From: Alphaproteobacteria bacterium
GTDB taxonomy: Bacteria; Pseudomonadota; Alphaproteobacteria; Rhodobacterales; Rhodobacteraceae
DNA: 35,839 bases
Reading direction: 5' to 3'
Assembly (NCBI GenBank): GCA_016869875.1
Contig: VGDE01000015.1
Coordinates: forward strand, 1-35,839
In this document: positions 20,572 through 27,719 of the stretch, one piece after another
How the letters are laid out: each line of letters begins with the position of its first letter
Numbering within the stretch: position 1 is the first letter of the stretch
The notes under the pieces: generated by a model
Seen by the model: only the letters and a program-made list of their open reading frames with translations
Told to the model about the DNA's origin: nothing
Database searches by the model: none
Made by a program: the position numbers and the translations under genes

Positions 20572-21963
20572 TTGGCCGAACTGACGGAAACCGCAGCCAA
20601 GCCCACACGCGCCTATGTGATCCACCCCGATCTTGGACGCGCCCGCACCCAACGGCGCGAGCCCGAGCATGCCCTGGCCGAGGCCGTGGCGCTGGCCCTT
20701 GCCCTTCCGGGGATCGAGATGGTGGGCTCGGAGGTCGCGAACCTGCGCGAACCCAATCCCGGCAAGCTGTTCGGCAAGGGCAAGCTGGCCGAGATCGGCG
20801 AGCGTCTTGAGCAGGCCGAGGTGGAACTGGTCCTGATCGATGGCCCCGTTACCCCGGTGCAGCAGCGCAACCTGGAAAAGGAGTGGGGCGTCAAGCTCTT
20901 GGACCGGACCGGGCTGATTCTGGAAATCTTTGCCGACCGCGCCCGCACCCGCGAAGGCGTGCTGCAGGTCGAACTGGCCGCGCTGTCCTATCAGCGCACG
21001 CGGCTTGTGCGCGCCTGGACGCACCTTGAACGCCAGCGGGGCGGGCTGGGCTTTGTCGGCGGCCCCGGTGAGACTCAGATCGAGGCCGACCGCCGCGCCA
21101 TCGACGAACAGATGACCCGCCTGCGCCGCCAGCTGGACCGGGTGGTCAAGACCCGCACGTTGCACCGCGCCGCCCGCGCCAAGGTGCCTTATCCGATCGT
21201 GGCGCTGGTGGGTTACACCAACGCCGGCAAGTCGACCCTGTTCAACCGCATGACCGGGGCCGAGGTCTTTGCCAAGGACATGCTGTTCGCCACGCTGGAC
21301 CCGACGATGCGTGCAATCCGCCTGCCGGACGCGCAGGGGGGCAATTCCGGCCGCAAGATCATCCTGTCGGACACGGTGGGCTTTATCAGCGATCTGCCGA
21401 CCGAACTGGTTGCCGCCTTCCGCGCCACGCTGGAAGAGGTGCTGGAGGCCGACCTGATCCTGCATGTCCGCGACATCAGCCATCCTGAAACCGAGGAACA
21501 GGCCGCCGACGTGGCCGAGATCCTGGACAGCCTGGGCGTGGACGAGGACGTGGCCGCGATCGAGGTGTGGAACAAGATCGACGCGCTGGGGCCCGATACG
21601 CGGGCGGCGCTGCGGCGGACCGACGCGCGGACCGAAGGAGTGCAGGCGGTCAGCGCCCTGACCGGCGAAGGGCTGGACGACCTGATCGGAGCCATTGACC
21701 AGTTGCTGGGCGACGTCCTGGACGAGCCGCGGGTCGAGGATCAGGTGGTCCTTGATTTCGCGGAGGGCCGCAGCCGTGCCTGGCTGCACGAAGCCGGCGT
21801 GGTCGAGCGGGAAGAGGCCGCAGAGGACGGGCTGCGCCTGCACCTGCGCTGGACCGCGCGGCAGAAGGGCGCGTTTGAGGCATTCTCCGGCACGGCGGGC
21901 GGGACCGATGACGATGACGAACCCGACGAGCCACGCTCTGGCGGGTGGCATCCGGTCGATTGA
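20572..21963 (+). CDS. hflX: Ribosome-associated GTPase HflX
   Basis: HflX splits stalled or stress-idled ribosomes. The 463 residues show the N-terminal HflX domain with the glycine-rich linker GGLGFVGGPGETQIE. The GTPase domain has G1 GYTNAGKST, the G2 Thr in LFATLDPTMR, G3 DTVGFISDLP and G4 NKID. An acidic C-terminal end follows. The start is TTG (20572), directly after the hfq TGA, with GGCGAGGA inside the last hfq codons as ribosome binding site. The hfq-hflX pairing is widely conserved. Confidence 0.94.
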   Translation: MAELTETAAKPTRAYVIHPDLGRARTQRREPEHALAEAVALALALPGIEMVGSEVANLREPNPGKLFGKGKLAEIGERLEQAEVELVLIDGPVTPVQQRNLEKEWGVKLLDRTGLILEIFADRARTREGVLQVELAALSYQRTRLVRAWTHLERQRGGLGFVGGPGETQIEADRRAIDEQMTRLRRQLDRVVKTRTLHRAARAKVPYPIVALVGYTNAGKSTLFNRMTGAEVFAKDMLFATLDPTMRAIRLPDAQGGNSGRKIILSDTVGFISDLPTELVAAFRATLEEVLEADLILHVRDISHPETEEQAADVAEILDSLGVDEDVAAIEVWNKIDALGPDTRAALRRTDARTEGVQAVSALTGEGLDDLIGAIDQLLGDVLDEPRVEDQVVLDFAEGRSRAWLHEAGVVEREEAAEDGLRLHLRWTARQKGAFEAFSGTAGGTDDDDEPDEPRSGGWHPVD

Positions 21964-22041: not shown

Positions 22042-22078
22042 TCCCGGAACGGGCAATCGGCGCCTGTTCCGGGATTTT
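22042..22078 (+). terminator. Intrinsic terminator after hflX
   Basis: TCCCGGAAC (22042-22050) pairs with GTTCCGGGA (22066-22074). The inner bases GGGC and GCCT can extend the stem. TTTT follows at 22075-22078. It separates hflX from the convergent sugar kinase gene. Confidence 0.85.
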
Positions 22079-22084
22079 CTGGCC

Positions 22085-22996
22085 TCAGGCCGGCATCTCG
22101 TGCGCCCAGGGCGGGTTGGCGCCGGGGCGGGACACCGTGATGGCCGCCGCCTGGGCGCCCAGGGTCAGGGCGGCGCGGATCTGGTCGGACGTCATGGCGG
22201 CAATGCCGTCCTTGGTCAGCAGGCCTTGGCGGTCGAGGCTGGCCAGGATGCCCGCATTGAAGGTGTCGCCGGCGCCGATCGTGTCGGCCACGCTGGTCCG
22301 AACGGCAGGGACGCTGACGGTTTCGCCCGCCCGGACGGCCTTTGCGCCCGCCTCGCCGCCGGTTTGCAGAACCAGCCTGGGACCAGTGGCCAGCAGCTTG
22401 CGCGCCGCCTCCTCTGGCGCCAGATCGGGATACAGCCATTCCAGGTCGTCGGCGGACATCTTGACGATATCCGCCAGCGGCAGCAGCCGGGCCAGACGCG
22501 CGCGATAGGCGTCGGGATCGGTGATAAAGAAGGGCCGGATGTTGGGATCGATCATCACCGGCAGGCGGGCGTGGTGCCGGGCGATCAGTGTCTCGATCGT
22601 GGCGCCACAGGGGTCGGGCACAAGGCTGATGCCGCCGGCAAAAAGCGCGGTGACGCTGTCGGGCAGGGCAGGGATGTCCTCGGGGCGCAGCATCCGCCCG
22701 GCCGAGCCTTCGTCGTAAAAGGAGTAACGTGCCTCTCCCTCGGTCAGAGTCACGAGGGCCAGCGTGGTCAGCCGGTCGCTGCGCGGGCACAGCGTGGTGT
22801 CCACGCCGGCTTCGGTCAGCGGCGCCAGGATCTGGCTACCGAACGGGTCGCGGCTGATCGGCCACAGATAGCCCGTCCGCTGGCCCAGCCGGCCCAGGGC
22901 GATGGCGGTGTTGTAGACCGCGCCGCCGGCCAGCGGACGGAAGGCGCCGTCCTGCGGCACCATGTCGATCAGCGATTCGCCTGCACACAGGATCAT
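22085..22996 (-). CDS. PfkB-family carbohydrate kinase (fructokinase-like)
   Basis: This 303-residue ribokinase-fold enzyme phosphorylates a sugar or related alcohol with ATP. It has an N-terminal CAGESLIDMVP, the substrate-lid region with GGAVYNTAIALGRLG, the signature-1-like region, and the C-terminal signature DTIGAGDTFNAGIL, with the catalytic Asp in GAGD. The overall pattern is closest to bacterial fructokinases, but substrate cannot be read from sequence. It is the last gene of a minus-strand run and lies 18 bases after the zinc-ribbon gene. The functional link to that module is unclear. Confidence 0.87.
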   Translation of the reverse strand: MILCAGESLIDMVPQDGAFRPLAGGAVYNTAIALGRLGQRTGYLWPISRDPFGSQILAPLTEAGVDTTLCPRSDRLTTLALVTLTEGEARYSFYDEGSAGRMLRPEDIPALPDSVTALFAGGISLVPDPCGATIETLIARHHARLPVMIDPNIRPFFITDPDAYRARLARLLPLADIVKMSADDLEWLYPDLAPEEAARKLLATGPRLVLQTGGEAGAKAVRAGETVSVPAVRTSVADTIGAGDTFNAGILASLDRQGLLTKDGIAAMTSDQIRAALTLGAQAAAITVSRPGANPPWAHEMPA

Positions 22997-23014: not shown

Positions 23015-24184
23015 CTAATATGACCCGTTCAGATACAGGAAGATTGATAGCGCAACCAGCGCCACCAGAACAGCGCCGGCGATTTTCCACATCGACCAGG
23101 GCCGCTCGCCCATGACGCGCCCCGACTGGCCGTTGACGACAAAGCGATAGCTGCGGCCGTTGTAGCGATAGGCCGCGGTCCAGATCGGCAAAAGGATATG
23201 CTTGAACGTTTCGTCGGAAAAGTCCGTGTCCAGCCGGTCGATCCGCTGCTGGTCGCCACCGATGTCGCGGCGGGCGTCGCCGGAGATGACCCGCGTCATC
23301 TGGGCGCGTGCCGCATGATGGCCCTCGGCCAGGGGAACGGTATAGCCTTCGGCCTCGAAGCCCGACAGGAAGGCCGGGTCATAAAGCGCCAGTTGCGACA
23401 GGTCCCAAGGCGTCAGCGCGTCAGTGAAGCGCGGCGGCAGGGCCGTGGAGGCCAGCACCAGAACATCGTTGAAGTCGCGAGAAACCTGCCCTGAGACGGG
23501 CCGCCACCGGATACGGGGCACCTGCTGCGCGACGCGCTGGCTGCGGCCGTTCACCTGACGGGTGACCCAGACTGTCTCGAAGTAGGTGTCGCCCCGTTGG
23601 CCGTGATAGCGGCTGCGGGTGCGGGCGTCGAAGGTCCAGAAGGGCGAATACACGCCGGTCAGGCGACGGTCCTTGCGGGCATAGGCGGTCAGGCCAGAGG
23701 GCGCGAACCATAACCCGCCCAGCCAGCGGGTCATGGCCGCACGGGCTTGGTCCTCGGTCAGGACAAAGGGCAGCACGCCTTGCGGCTTGATACGGCGCGT
23801 CTGGCCGGTATCGGTGACGACGGGCGTGGCGCAAAAGGGGCAGGCGCTGGCGTGATGCGTGTCGTCCAGATCGACCTGGGCCCCGCAGTTGGGGCAGGAC
23901 AGCGTGCGGACGACCTGCACGATGTCACCCGCCCCCGCATCCAGATGCAGGCCCCGCTCCAGCGGGATTTCGGCCAGTTCGGGGGACTTGTGGCCCGCAT
24001 CCCATTGCAGCGCCGGATCCCCCGGCGCCCCGTCGGCATGGCGTCCGGGCGCGCGGGCGGCGCCGGGACCGATCTGCTGCTGATGGCCGCAATAGTCGCA
24101 GACCAGGCTTTGCTGGCCCGGCTGAAAGCGCAGGCTGGCCCCGCATTGCGCGCAGGGAAAGCGGTGTTCGGCGGGACCCGGCAT
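23015..24184 (-). CDS. Double zinc-ribbon membrane-anchored protein
   Basis: This 389-residue protein carries two four-Cys zinc ribbons: C11/C14 with C29/C32 (CAQC...CDYC), and C97/C100 with C115/C118 (CPNC...CPFC). A middle domain of about 240 residues has a conserved look (YSPFWTFDARTRSRYHGQRG) and contains QRVAQQVPRIRWRPVSG. A single C-terminal membrane helix (about 366-386) ends in a short tail. Similar proteins are often labelled 'TFIIB-type zinc finger' or helicase-like, but no helicase motif is present. It lies one base after an SPFH gene. In Bacillus subtilis the zinc-ribbon YdjG and SPFH protein YdjI act together in membrane stress, and a similar pairing is inferred. Confidence 0.75.
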   Translation of the reverse strand: MPGPAEHRFPCAQCGASLRFQPGQQSLVCDYCGHQQQIGPGAARAPGRHADGAPGDPALQWDAGHKSPELAEIPLERGLHLDAGAGDIVQVVRTLSCPNCGAQVDLDDTHHASACPFCATPVVTDTGQTRRIKPQGVLPFVLTEDQARAAMTRWLGGLWFAPSGLTAYARKDRRLTGVYSPFWTFDARTRSRYHGQRGDTYFETVWVTRQVNGRSQRVAQQVPRIRWRPVSGQVSRDFNDVLVLASTALPPRFTDALTPWDLSQLALYDPAFLSGFEAEGYTVPLAEGHHAARAQMTRVISGDARRDIGGDQQRIDRLDTDFSDETFKHILLPIWTAAYRYNGRSYRFVVNGQSGRVMGERPWSMWKIAGAVLVALVALSIFLYLNGSY

Positions 24185-24185
24185 G

Positions 24186-25298
24186 TCAGCCGGGCAGCGG
24201 CGGCGGCATCATGGTGAACAGCTGCGCCAGTTCGGGCACCTCTTCGGCGGGCAGCCAGCCGTCCTGCCCCGGCGTCCAGACCAGCGTGTCGCGGGCAAAG
24301 TTCCCTTCGGCCACCATGCGACCCAGATGTCCGCGGCCATAGGGGCCCTGTGCCGCGCCGCCGACCGCCACGTGCCAGACGGTTTCGACCGCGCGGCCGG
24401 GCAGGGGCGGCGGCGCAGGGGCGGCCTGGGCAGGCTGTGGAACCGCCCCCCACGGCCCCGCCCGCATCGAGGCTCCCATCGCGGCCCCCATCGCCGCCCC
24501 AAAACCCGCTCCGGCGCCACCTTCGTTGCGGGCGGCCGCCAGCATCGCCTCGGAGGCGGCATACTGGCCGAAACGGTCCAGATCGCCGATGATCCCCATG
24601 CTGGTGCGCTTGTCCAGCATCCCCTCGACCTCGGCGGGCAGGCTGATGTTCTCGATATAGAATTCGGGCAGGGTCAGGCCATAGGTCTCGATCACGGGGG
24701 CGATGGCCTTGGCGACCAGCCGGCCCAGCTGGTCCGTGTTGGCGGCCATGTCCAGGACCGGGATGTTCGAGGCGGCGATGGCGCGCGAGAATTCCTGCAC
24801 GATCACGTTGCGGATCTGGTAGGCGATCTCGTCGCGAGTAAAGTCGCCGTCGGTGCCGACGATTTCGGACATGAAGCGCGCAGGATCGGTCACGCGCATC
24901 GAATAGGTGCCAAAGGCGCGCAGGCGAACCGGGCCGAACTCGGGATCGCGCGCGATGATCGGGTTGCGGGTGCCCCACTTCAGGTCGTTGAAACGCGTCT
25001 TGTTGACGAAATAGATCTCGGATTTGAAGGGGCTGCGAAAGCCGTGATCCCAGTGCTGCAACCGCGTCAGGATCGGCAGGTTGTTTGTTTCCAGCAGGTA
25101 AAGGCCCGGGCCAAAGACATCGGCCAGCTGCCCTTCATGAACAAAGACGGCGGCCTGTCCTTCGCGCACCGTCAGTTTGGCACCGTACTTGATGGCTCGC
25201 CCTACCATGTCGAAGCGCCAGACCATCGTGTCACGGCTGTCCGCCGTCCATTCGATGACCTCGATGAACTCTCCGCCCAGGATGTCGAAAATGGACAT
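24186..25298 (-). CDS. SPFH-domain protein with C-terminal GYF_2 domain (YdjI-like)
   Basis: This 370-residue protein has an SPFH/band-7-type domain at about residues 45-250 (LTVREGQAAVFVHEGQL, FGPGLYLLETNNLPIL, FGTYSMRVTDPARFM, LPEFYIENISLP). An Ala/Gly/Met-rich linker (about 260-300) follows. A C-terminal module of about 55 residues has WHVAVGGAAQGPYGRGHLGRMV and TLVWTPGQDGWLPAEEV, the GYF_2 (DUF4339) pattern. There is no N-terminal membrane helix, as in the YdjI branch rather than flotillins. Start 25298 has GGGGGAC upstream; an ATG 12 bases earlier is possible. It is followed one base later by the zinc-ribbon gene. Confidence 0.83.
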   Translation of the reverse strand: MSIFDILGGEFIEVIEWTADSRDTMVWRFDMVGRAIKYGAKLTVREGQAAVFVHEGQLADVFGPGLYLLETNNLPILTRLQHWDHGFRSPFKSEIYFVNKTRFNDLKWGTRNPIIARDPEFGPVRLRAFGTYSMRVTDPARFMSEIVGTDGDFTRDEIAYQIRNVIVQEFSRAIAASNIPVLDMAANTDQLGRLVAKAIAPVIETYGLTLPEFYIENISLPAEVEGMLDKRTSMGIIGDLDRFGQYAASEAMLAAARNEGGAGAGFGAAMGAAMGASMRAGPWGAVPQPAQAAPAPPPLPGRAVETVWHVAVGGAAQGPYGRGHLGRMVAEGNFARDTLVWTPGQDGWLPAEEVPELAQLFTMMPPPLPG

Positions 25299-25352
25299 GA
25301 TGTCCCCCATGTCATGGCCCGCCCTTATGTATGGGACGCGCAGGGTGGTGGA

Positions 25353-26402
25353 TCAAGCGCTCTCGCCCAGCAGTTCCGCGGCGATCTGGCGGACGATGGG
25401 CATGGCCTCGGCCTCGGACATGCCCGGCGACAGGCGGCGGTCATACAGGATCTGCAGCAGCAGCTCGTCATGCCGGGTCAGCAGGGCGAATTCCTCGTCG
25501 TCGTTGAACAGCGAGGGGCGCACGCCGGGATCGTCATTGGCCAGCCCCATGCCCTGCGCCAGCTCCTCGTGGATGCAGGAGCTGCGCAAGAGGCGCGGAA
25601 GTTCCGCCCGGATCACCGCGACGGCATGGGCATAGGCGTTGCTGCCCCCCTGAGAATAGGCAAAGACCGAACAGCTGATGGCTGGCGGCAAGTCCGTCAC
25701 CAGCGCCACGTCCCGTGCGGGGATCCCCGGAACCAGCTGTTCCAGCCGCGGGCCGATGGCGCGCCGCTCGTCCTCGGTCAAAACCAGGATGGTGAAGTTG
25801 CCGCGTTCGGCCGTGAGCGTGACGGGATGGCGCGTTGCGGTCGAAAGGCGCCCGGCATAATCCGCGATCTCGGACCGCCAGGCCGGACGGCTGGCCATGT
25901 CGATCGAGTTGCCAAATTCCAGCTGCATCCGGACGGGCTGTTCCCACCGTCGCAGCGGCGCCGGACGCGACCGGGCCACCAGCCCGTCGCCCGAGCGGCT
26001 GTATTCGTCGCGCAGCGCGACTGCCAGAAAGTTGCGGGTCAGCGTTTCAGCGTCGATAGGGGCATCCTGGGGGACCCGGTCGCGGCGCAGGCGGCCTTGC
26101 GCCACCAGCCGCTGTTCGACCGCCATGTAATAGTCGCGCTGCGACTGGCTGGCAGGGCTGGCGCGCTGGCTTGCCTGCTGGGCGGCGGCATTGGCGGCGC
26201 GGTTCCGCTCGGCCCGGGCGCGGCGCAACTGGGCCTGCTCGACCGGCGCGCCCTGGATCTCGGGACGAGGCGTCGGGCGTTCGGCGGGCTGCAGGGAGTC
26301 GTCCACGCCCTGTCCGCAAGCCGTCAGCGTCAGCGCCGCCAACAGGGTCGCGGCAACCGCGTGCAGATGCCGGGACATCGGCCGGGGCGAAAGCGTCTGC
26401 AT
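25353..26402 (-). CDS. DUF2927 lipoprotein, putative metalloprotease-like
   Basis: This 349-residue exported lipoprotein has a lipobox Cys at C29 (TLTAC). A Gln/Ala/Arg-rich linker runs to about residue 110. The DUF2927 domain (about 115-345) carries CIHEELAQGMGLANDD (276-291), PSLFNDDEEFALLT (296-309) and HDELLLQILYD (311-321). HExxQxxGLxND resembles the zinc-protease HExxH pattern with Gln in place of the second His; H311 might supply the other ligand. Catalysis is unproven for the family. The ATG overlaps the telA stop by one base (TGATG) and has GGAGG upstream, indicating coupling. Confidence 0.82.
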   Translation of the reverse strand: MQTLSPRPMSRHLHAVAATLLAALTLTACGQGVDDSLQPAERPTPRPEIQGAPVEQAQLRRARAERNRAANAAAQQASQRASPASQSQRDYYMAVEQRLVAQGRLRRDRVPQDAPIDAETLTRNFLAVALRDEYSRSGDGLVARSRPAPLRRWEQPVRMQLEFGNSIDMASRPAWRSEIADYAGRLSTATRHPVTLTAERGNFTILVLTEDERRAIGPRLEQLVPGIPARDVALVTDLPPAISCSVFAYSQGGSNAYAHAVAVIRAELPRLLRSSCIHEELAQGMGLANDDPGVRPSLFNDDEEFALLTRHDELLLQILYDRRLSPGMSEAEAMPIVRQIAAELLGESA

Positions 26403-27586
26403 CAGCGGCCTCCGGTTCTTCCGGGAATGGCACCGGACTGGCGCGCGGAGGCCGAGGCCAGCGCATCGCGCAGCTCGGCCTCCATCCGCGTCAGCTCGCC
26501 CTCGGCGGCGGCGCGGCGCGTGCGGCCCTCGTCCGCGATGCGCAGGCTGTCCTCGATGGTGGCGATCAGCTGGGCATTGGCGGTGCGCACGGCCTCGATG
26601 TCGAAAACGCCGCGTTCGGTTTCAGCCCGGATCGTGGCGTTGGCCTGGCGCAGGTTGTCGGCGTTGCGGGTCAGCAATTCGTTGGTCAGGTCACTGGCCT
26701 CGCGCACGGCGCGCGCGGCCTCGGCACTGCGCTGGATGGTGACGGCCTGCGCCAGCTGGGTTTCCCACAAGGGCACCGTGTTCACCAGGGTCGAGTTGAT
26801 CTTGGTGATAAGCGACTTGTCGTTTTCCTGCACCAGGCGGATCGAGGGCAGCGACTGCATCGTCACCTGCCGCGTCAGCTTGAGGTCGTGGACGCGGCGC
26901 TCCAGGTCGTCACGCAGCGCGCGCAGGTCGCGCAGTTCCTGTGCCTCCATCACCTGGTCGGGCTGGGGCTGGGCAGCGACCTCGGCCTCCTTGGCAGGAA
27001 TGGTCTCGTAATCCAGCTGATGCAGCTTTTCCGTCCCTGCAGCAATGTATAGCGCCAGTTCGTCGTAAAAGGCCAGCGTGCGGTCATAAAGCAGGTCCAG
27101 CGACTTGACGTCCTTGAGCAGCTTCTGCTCGTGCGCTTCCAGTTCGGCGGTGATGCGGTCGATCTGGGTCTGCACCTGTTCGTAATTGGCCACGAACTTG
27201 GCAAAGGGCGCGGACCGCCCCAGCAGCTTTTCCCACCAGCTGCGGCTGCGCCGCATGTCCAGCTCCGTGGTCGAAAAGCCCCGGATCGTGGTCACGACCT
27301 CGCGCAGGCTGTCGCCGGCCGGGCCTACCTCCTTGGTCCTGACATCGGCCAGCATGCGCTGGCTGATCTGTTGCAGGTCGGCCTGCGCGCGCGTCCCGAA
27401 GCGCAGGATCGAGCCCGAGTCCCTCAGGTCGATCTCGTCCATGAGGCGGCGGATCTCGGCCTGCGTTGCGGGGTCTGCCTCGACCAGCCGGGCCGGTTCG
27501 GGCGCCGGCTCGGGCAGGGCCGCGCCGGTCAGGGCGTCGATCTCGGCCTGGGTGGCCTCGGCGCGGCGGCGGGTGTCGTCGGTCAT
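26402..27586 (-). CDS. telA: TelA-family toxic anion resistance protein
   Basis: This is a 394-residue, mostly helical cytoplasmic protein of the TelA/KlaA (PF05816) family. Recognisable parts are the RFGTRAQADLQQISQRMLADVRTKEVG-type region near residue 65, GFSTTELDMRRSRSWWEKLLGRS, and the long coiled-coil that follows, then ETQLAQAVTIQRSAEAARAV near residue 300. Members are linked to tellurite and cell-envelope stress resistance, but the biochemistry is unknown. ATG 27586 is chosen because AGGGGAC lies upstream. Two earlier in-frame ATGs (27610, 27643) are possible. It begins the minus-strand run telA-DUF2927-SPFH-zinc ribbon-PfkB. Confidence 0.87.
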   Translation of the reverse strand: MTDDTRRRAEATQAEIDALTGAALPEPAPEPARLVEADPATQAEIRRLMDEIDLRDSGSILRFGTRAQADLQQISQRMLADVRTKEVGPAGDSLREVVTTIRGFSTTELDMRRSRSWWEKLLGRSAPFAKFVANYEQVQTQIDRITAELEAHEQKLLKDVKSLDLLYDRTLAFYDELALYIAAGTEKLHQLDYETIPAKEAEVAAQPQPDQVMEAQELRDLRALRDDLERRVHDLKLTRQVTMQSLPSIRLVQENDKSLITKINSTLVNTVPLWETQLAQAVTIQRSAEAARAVREASDLTNELLTRNADNLRQANATIRAETERGVFDIEAVRTANAQLIATIEDSLRIADEGRTRRAAAEGELTRMEAELRDALASASARQSGAIPGRTGGR

Positions 27587-27719
27587 CTGGAATGTCCCCT
27601 TGTCAGCCATCCGCAGGGCGGCGCTGGCGCTTTGCATCAGCATATGGCGAAATCTCGTCCGATCAACGACATGGGGCGCGGAAAGTTTCGCCGGGTGGCG
27701 GTCCGGGCACAGGGGCGGG

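Follow-up and report, generated by a model that had tools for sequence, protein, structure and literature searches.

Contig VGDE01000015.1 of the GenBank assembly GCA_016869875.1, from an alphaproteobacterium of the family Rhodobacteraceae, carries a compact run of four genes encoding TelA, a DUF2927 protein, an SPFH protein with a GYF domain and a double zinc-ribbon protein (ZnR). The window analysed here is the whole stretch from position 1 to 35,839 of this contig (35,839 nucleotides), and its genus is Paracoccus. The run belongs to a gene cluster that is conserved in most Rhodobacteraceae genera surveyed and that recurs, without the DUF2927 gene, in three other alphaproteobacterial families. 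We give about an even chance to the reading that the cluster is the Rhodobacteraceae form of a widely conserved inner-membrane maintenance or stress scaffold, composed of two anchored pairs, XpaC with TelA and ZnR with the SPFH protein. The features of the window that bear on this are:

26402..27586, minus strand: telA (PF05816), 394 amino acids, without membrane segment, all-helical prediction
25353..26402, minus strand: gene of the DUF2927 (PF11150) predicted lipoprotein, 349 amino acids, predicted matrixin/metzincin fold
25533..25577, minus strand: DUF2927 residues 276-290, C-x-x-E-E-x-x-Q-x-x-G-x-x-N-D, at the site of the metzincin HExxHxxG zinc motif
24186..25298, minus strand: SPFH gene (Band_7_1, PF13421), YdjI type, 370 amino acids, without membrane segment
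24228..24377, minus strand: GYF_2 domain, C-terminal in the SPFH protein and followed by the PPPLPG tail
23015..24184, minus strand: ZnR gene, 389 amino acids, single C-terminal membrane segment
23027..23083, minus strand: ZnR residues 368-386, membrane anchor predicted from hydrophobicity

All four open reading frames (ORFs) form one minus-strand run, as the initial annotation had described, and the two tight junctions that it had pointed out can be read in the sequence: telA and the DUF2927 gene overlap in TGATG, with one base common to both, and the SPFH and ZnR genes are one base apart (TGA-C-ATG). The telA start at 27586 matches that of its homologues, and a further in-frame start is present upstream at 27643. 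TelA matches its Pfam family at E 1.5e-106 (356.7 bits against a cut-off of 30, profile positions 2-331 of 332) and DUF2927 at E 2e-58. The proposed SPFH-GYF protein is borne out by Band_7_1 (E 5.5e-99, 330.5 bits against a cut-off of 24) together with GYF_2 (E 1.4e-18), and the best-scoring named relative of its gene is found in Paracoccus sediminilitoris (88% identity). For ZnR, Pfam gives zinc-ribbon matches only, all of which are under the cut-offs. Its eight cysteines 11, 14, 29, 32, 97, 100, 115 and 118 are invariant in 41 aligned sequences including that of the window, and residues 368-386 are its one hydrophobic segment, in agreement with the C-terminally anchored zinc-ribbon protein that had been predicted. 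The alignments of telA, DUF2927 and ZnR were made from every second one of 73, 74 and 79 genes, leaving out the fragmentary telA of L143 and the DUF2927 gene of L140, whose start is doubtful. A sequence search of solved structures gave no useful E-value for TelA (best 0.71) or ZnR (best 0.017) and no match for DUF2927; the GYF part of the SPFH protein matches a gliding-motility protein (E 0.0005).

Conservation was surveyed in a draw of 101 genomes from the order, all of one family, Rhodobacteraceae, by the labels of the tool. TelA and DUF2927 are each present in 100 of these, XpaC in 99, and ZnR and SPFH (over the cut-off) in 98. Neighbourhoods were taken for 60 regions, at least one per genus, and not for all 101 genomes; together with the window and genome G085 they cover 54 genera. 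Counted on the same strand and within 2.5 kb, xpaC-telA occurs in 51 genera, telA-DUF2927 in 50, DUF2927-SPFH in 49 and SPFH-ZnR in 45, and within 100 bases the counts are 49, 50, 37 and 21. SPFH lies at most 2.5 kb from telA in 50 of the 54 genera. Given this conserved order, the arrangement is beyond chance. Genera g8 and g17 have the cluster without DUF2927, and a cytochrome b561 gene is sometimes inserted between SPFH and ZnR. The usual gene upstream of xpaC encodes a 23S rRNA pseudouridine synthase (rluB-like) or TerC, and the cluster is often followed by pfkB or a nitroreductase gene and then by dtd. The same gene order is observed in a second set of 80 named loci, which are the best 80 by SPFH similarity to the window and are biased to close relatives. 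Gene order indicates that the cluster members belong together; it says nothing of how they act.

The usual gene directly upstream of telA is xpaC (PF10112), which precedes telA in 51 of the 54 genera, not including that of the window. In the named set, the loci with more than 1.2 kb before telA show xpaC immediately ahead of it in all 62 cases outside Paracoccus and in none of the seven within Paracoccus. In Paracoccus genomes, xpaC is directly followed by truA in four of the four genomes read and preceded by lpxK in three of them (L106:7776-11060).

A class-wide survey of 192 Alphaproteobacteria, in which three of the TelA genomes and three of the SPFH genomes are Rhodobacteraceae, extends this beyond the family. 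TelA is over its cut-off in 17 genomes and Band_7_1 exceeds 240 bits in nine; this threshold is our own choice, since 25 genomes pass the family cut-off and the other 16 score at most 30 bits, these being taken as matches to probable other SPFH proteins. Among the 189 genomes outside the family, TelA is present in 6/6 SPFH genomes versus 8/183 others (Fisher one-sided p 5e-8, from a test that ignores relatedness, which counts against its weight). Four of these six genomes, from three other alphaproteobacterial families, have a contiguous xpaC-telA-SPFH-ZnR order without DUF2927, with nothing between the genes in three and a short doubtful opposite-strand ORF in one; the core is thus conserved past close relatives. 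None of the flanking genes rluB, pfkB, nitroreductase and dtd was recognised at these clusters. The four-gene composition of the initial annotation does not hold in two respects: it had missed XpaC, the constant partner of TelA, and it had included DUF2927, which is a Rhodobacteraceae addition and not core. As a core member DUF2927 was rejected on its absence from the contiguous clusters of the three other families and from those of g8 and g17; in addition, of the 25 class-survey genomes beyond the family that have DUF2927, 24 lack a TelA match above its cut-off. A second type of cluster, telA - VWA protein - xpaC, is found at L097, L101 and L105. It likewise has TelA with XpaC and differs in that no SPFH or ZnR gene lies beside it, a VWA protein, which at two of the three loci carries a solute-binding domain, replacing SPFH-ZnR.

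In a phylum survey of 347 genomes (SPFH at E <=1e-30, TelA at E <=1e-20), SPFH was found in 21 genomes of other classes. With G439 of the same class, and with Rhodobacteraceae and G110 excluded, this gives 22 SPFH genomes, from which 17 neighbourhoods were taken; G309, G313, G334, G342 and G440 were omitted as a genome of the same genus had already been taken, and the 16 loci of other classes do not include L206 (G439). A clear ZnR homologue is the next-door gene in six of these 16 loci. Another eight adjoin a protein of what appears, from weak ZnR matches and mutual BLAST matches, to be one further family; the three tested with Pfam carry DUF4178 and zinc ribbons below the cut-off. DUF4178 proteins adjoin SPFH outside the Rhodobacteraceae at L197, L199, L202 and L206, and L199 also lies near spermidine synthase and amine oxidase genes. 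Since SPFH pairs with a zinc-ribbon protein in other classes without TelA beside it, the picture is one of two pairs, xpaC-telA and SPFH-ZnR, that have been joined in Alphaproteobacteria, with DUF2927 added in Rhodobacteraceae.

Natural losses and one fusion also connect SPFH and ZnR. Among the 101 genomes, these two genes are missing together in all three genomes that lack either of them (G011, G081 and G085). In G011, where a single weak SPFH-type match falls under the cut-off, DUF2927 is kept beside TerC and rluB, without telA, SPFH or ZnR, and G085 has only a short diverged telA (301 amino acids, 70.5 bits) between rluB and the nitroreductase gene. In G054, which belongs to the genus of the window, SPFH and ZnR are fused in one frame of 654 amino acids (L035:8404-10368), in which the GYF match is gone and the ZnR membrane segment is kept at the end of the protein. 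Because the two are joined in a single frame, the SPFH domain and the zinc ribbons are predicted to lie on the same side of the membrane.

The tail of the SPFH protein of the window (24186-24230) reads PPPLPG, is conserved in relatives that carry the GYF region and is a possible ligand of the protein's own GYF domain. In the alignment, all five rows with a GYF region end in PPP[LM]P. The SPFH protein of G110 (L096:9205-10206) has neither an aligned GYF region nor the PPPLP tail; it ends in what reads as a SHOCT-like helix pair, without profile support. As G110 lacks both the GYF region and the tail and the five rows with the GYF region have both, the GYF domain may bind the tail of the adjacent SPFH subunit.

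Published data on relatives bear on the function of both pairs. In Lactococcus lactis, xpaC and telA1 (llmg_1115 and llmg_1116) are reported to be up 10.3- and 3.4-fold on membrane-protein overproduction and are listed as putative members of the CesSR regulon, and deleting both together causes a partial growth defect during membrane-protein overproduction, according to the passages of PMC3139573 on these genes. In Listeria monocytogenes, lmo1966-1967 is described as LiaR-regulated, and disruption of lmo1967 is said to raise susceptibility to nisin 4-fold and to tellurite 2-fold, in a passage of PMC12791056 that cites other work. These Firmicutes pairs consist of the same two families, in the same order by locus number, and are regulated by envelope stress in two species; they differ in that SPFH, ZnR and DUF2927 are not mentioned in the parts of the two accounts that treat them. 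For the other pair, the closest known system is pspA-ydjGHI of Bacillus subtilis, in which one operon encodes a Band_7_1-type SPFH protein (YdjI) and a membrane protein with a double zinc ribbon (YdjG); B. subtilis was matched as the control in the Band_7_1 search. There, too, a soluble SPFH protein needs membrane partners, the membrane localisation of YdjI requiring YdjG and YdjH as stated in the relevant part of PMC8581546, and band-7 and zinc-ribbon partners of PspA are described in sections of PMC11237479. Unlike the present cluster, the B. subtilis operon has PspA and YdjH (with a TPM domain) and is without TelA, XpaC and DUF2927. A YpeB-related NTF2-like domain is described for YdjG in the same sections of PMC11237479, whereas the ZnR studied here is known from its zinc ribbons and membrane segment. 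Neither PMC11237479 nor PMC8581546 mentions TelA by name in its main text, and no published TelA-SPFH cluster was found among the literature matches listed.

In the proposed mechanism, XpaC, with up to four hydrophobic segments, would tether the soluble helical TelA to the membrane's inner face, and ZnR, tail-anchored through one membrane helix, would hold the soluble SPFH-GYF protein at the membrane. SPFH subunits would build a scaffold, perhaps joined by GYF domains that bind PPPLPG tails, and TelA would act on the scaffold patch and keep the membrane tight under envelope damage. To this the Rhodobacteraceae would have added DUF2927, a putative lipoprotein with a matrixin-like fold. Observed directly are the gene order and its conservation, the joint loss, the fusion and the domain content, together with the predicted fold; the complex, its location and its stress function are what we infer here, and a role in envelope stress would fit the published data on relatives. 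Of the membrane-stress module proposed in the initial annotation, the conserved cluster therefore stands, the stress role is favoured by what is published on relatives, and the composition has been revised.

Several observations weigh against this reading. All six genomes of the window's genus have xpaC elsewhere, so the window shows the cluster without its head, this gene having been lost to another place. The telA and SPFH genes are not neighbours in G048 or in three of the 12 Paracoccus loci of the named set, and outside Paracoccus the same holds for one locus (L141); taken with the displaced xpaC, this means that a single transcript is not needed. Anchoring by XpaC is less clear in the window's own genome because the hydrophobic segments of its XpaC are weak (best 1.33 versus a threshold of 1.6) and weaker than those of relatives. 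Genera g7 and g18 have ZnR at a distance from SPFH, the xpaC-telA and SPFH-ZnR halves are apart in G110 and G227, and four of the 21 SPFH genomes of other classes also have TelA, on a different contig in all four. Two of the 16 SPFH loci of other classes have neither a ZnR nor a DUF4178-type neighbour. G081 keeps xpaC, telA and DUF2927 though SPFH and ZnR are lost, and the SPFH-ZnR fusion is an isolated event found in one genome only. The common flanks rluB, pfkB, nitroreductase and dtd have no evident link to the cluster.

Some of these points would be expected if the genes were neighbours only through chromosomal synteny in Rhodobacteraceae, with no common function: rluB upstream and pfkB or nitroreductase with dtd downstream are common there as well, and in Paracoccus xpaC is elsewhere and the two halves are sometimes apart. 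We regard this explanation as unlikely, since the four-gene order recurs in three other families without the recognised flanking genes, SPFH and TelA co-occur above expectation, and SPFH and ZnR are lost jointly and have been fused.

Another explanation is that the cluster serves tellurite or toxic-metal resistance of the Ter/Tel kind, some genera also having TerC. The name and history of telA agree with this, and TerC is present in 12/61 clustered loci, upstream of xpaC in 11 of these; still, this is a minority of loci. SPFH, ZnR and DUF2927 are not known to be part of Ter/Tel systems, which also speaks against it. The L. monocytogenes result cuts both ways, as disruption of lmo1967 does raise tellurite susceptibility, but the 4-fold effect on nisin exceeds the 2-fold effect on tellurite and points to the envelope (PMC12791056, in the passage cited above). 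A resistance cluster of this type appears quite improbable.

The initial annotation had further suggested that TelA, a long helical protein, stands in for PspA in a phage-shock system of the YdjI/YdjG type. The absence of a pspA gene that it had noted is confirmed: there are no matches in the window's own genome (G000, 401 contigs, 81% complete) and none in the six genomes of the genus, this one included. The combination of SPFH and zinc ribbon recalls ydjI-ydjG (PMC8581546 and PMC11237479, in the sections mentioned), and the TelA model is nearly all helix, at moderate confidence (predicted local distance difference test score, pLDDT, 71.9). However, of the 101 order genomes 38 encode PspA, 37 of them with a match over the cut-off, and none of the 38 is without TelA or SPFH. 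The presence of SPFH is independent of PspA (38/38 genomes with PspA versus 60/63 without, p 0.29), and in none of the 38 does PspA lie within 15 kb of the cluster, as compared by eye from the listed places. A profile comparison of TelA with PspA by hhalign gave a probability of 0.4% and an E-value of 0.14, with only three PspA sequences. In fold searches with the TelA model, Foldseek gave no match at E <=0.001, which by itself excludes nothing; no PspA structure is among the 50 rows listed of the Foldseek and VIA-align searches, a bare absence; and the best VIA-align score, Z 12.2, to alpha-pore-forming toxins and ClyA, is under the warning level of about 13 for helical bundles, so nothing is made of it. 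The replacement of PspA by TelA is rejected as a general rule, and such a stand-in is very improbable. TelA is thus no demonstrated substitute for PspA, and the module exists beside it.

The DUF2927 protein, an addition to the scaffold proposed above, is probably a lipoprotein, as had been annotated, because it has the lipobox LTAC at C29, a cysteine present in 35 of the 37 aligned sequences. Its structural model has a mean pLDDT of 87.4 over the whole chain and is good over about residues 85-349. The best Foldseek match has an E-value of 6e-4 at a probability of 1.00, with only three matches at E <=0.001, and all of the 50 rows listed are matrix metalloproteases (MMPs) or bacterial karilysin and snapalysin. 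VIA-align superposes the model on MMP-9 with Z 12.1 and a root-mean-square deviation of 2.7 over 150 aligned residues, and 225/998 chains reach Z >=8. A matrixin (metzincin) fold is therefore what the model predicts.

Active metzincins carry the zinc-binding motif HExxHxxGxxH/D. This motif is absent from the 37 aligned sequences of the window's branch, which have EExxQxxGxxND instead. In the window, helix 270-285 bears C276-I-H-E279-E280-L-A-Q283-G-M-G286-L-A-N289-D290, of which C276, E279, E280, Q283, G286 and D290 are invariant in 37/37 and N289 is present in 36; RPS[IL]FND follows, without a Met. Six other alphaproteobacterial genomes encode seven divergent DUF2927 proteins (among them those at L232, L229, L230, L238, L228 and L234, L229 also with Sel1 repeats), which have HExxHxxG in the same columns, finish the motif as GxxNH, GxxGH or GxxHS where the alignment reaches, and have the same Cys three residues before HExxHxxG. 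All of them are over the Pfam DUF2927 cut-off, and none matches a peptidase family at E 0.05. A motif count over 42 rows gave six of the HExxHxxG form, 29 with EExxQ or something close to it, two others and five that do not cover the columns; these rows are 41 matches and the window. Among them L213 repeats the window, a single gene appears as both L239 and L241, and L211 and L212 come from the cluster in other genera. A second paralogue of DUF2927, whose open frame spans about 450-650 amino acids and which has the motif C-L-[HN]-E-E-[LIV]-A-Q-A-[LI]-G-P-L-N-D, is found elsewhere in Rhodobacteraceae genomes (L239, L240, L242, L244, L246 and L247).

Two lines, the predicted fold and the sequence, place DUF2927 with the metzincins. 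Like MMPs, karilysin and snapalysin, it has the predicted fold (VIA-align Z 12) and appears to have kept the Glu at the catalytic position; in contrast to them, it is a putative lipoprotein and would have Glu, Gln and Asp in place of the expected zinc-binding His residues, the coincidence of the motif positions being deduced from spacing and alignment. In our view, DUF2927 more likely serves for binding or sensing in the periplasm than as an ordinary zinc protease. A more specific proposal, which is speculative and rather unlikely, is that it is a lipid-anchored metzincin whose His zinc site has been rebuilt as an invariant Glu-Glu/Gln/Asp site and is not decaying, that it binds another metal or serves as a peptide receptor, and that it would be the periplasmic part of a TelA-SPFH machine and report envelope damage to the inner-membrane scaffold. 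The name DUF2927 was not found in the literature searched.

Next to the cluster in the window, one further gene of the same strand is found:

22085..22996, minus strand: pfkB family sugar kinase gene, behind ZnR

This is the kinase that the initial annotation had rightly seen trailing the set. Its membership of the module is doubtful: pfkB is a frequent downstream neighbour of ZnR, but a nitroreductase gene takes this place in other genera. A promoter scan gave one promoter-like match, within the SPFH gene (shuffled sequences, mean 0.4), and a terminator scan gave one hairpin at 22042-22074 (shuffled sequences, mean 2.6); neither is above chance. The terminator-like hairpin separates pfkB from a convergent ORF at 20572-21963, which is hflX-like by reading, without profile support.

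TelA, XpaC and the SPFH proteins of the YdjI type occur widely. The genes of this cluster are present in 98 to 100 of the 101 order genomes and, with clear pairs, a fusion and losses, the cluster names the partners to test. For DUF2927, the analysis adds a fold prediction along with a site that can be tested, and the family may record a protease that has turned into something else.

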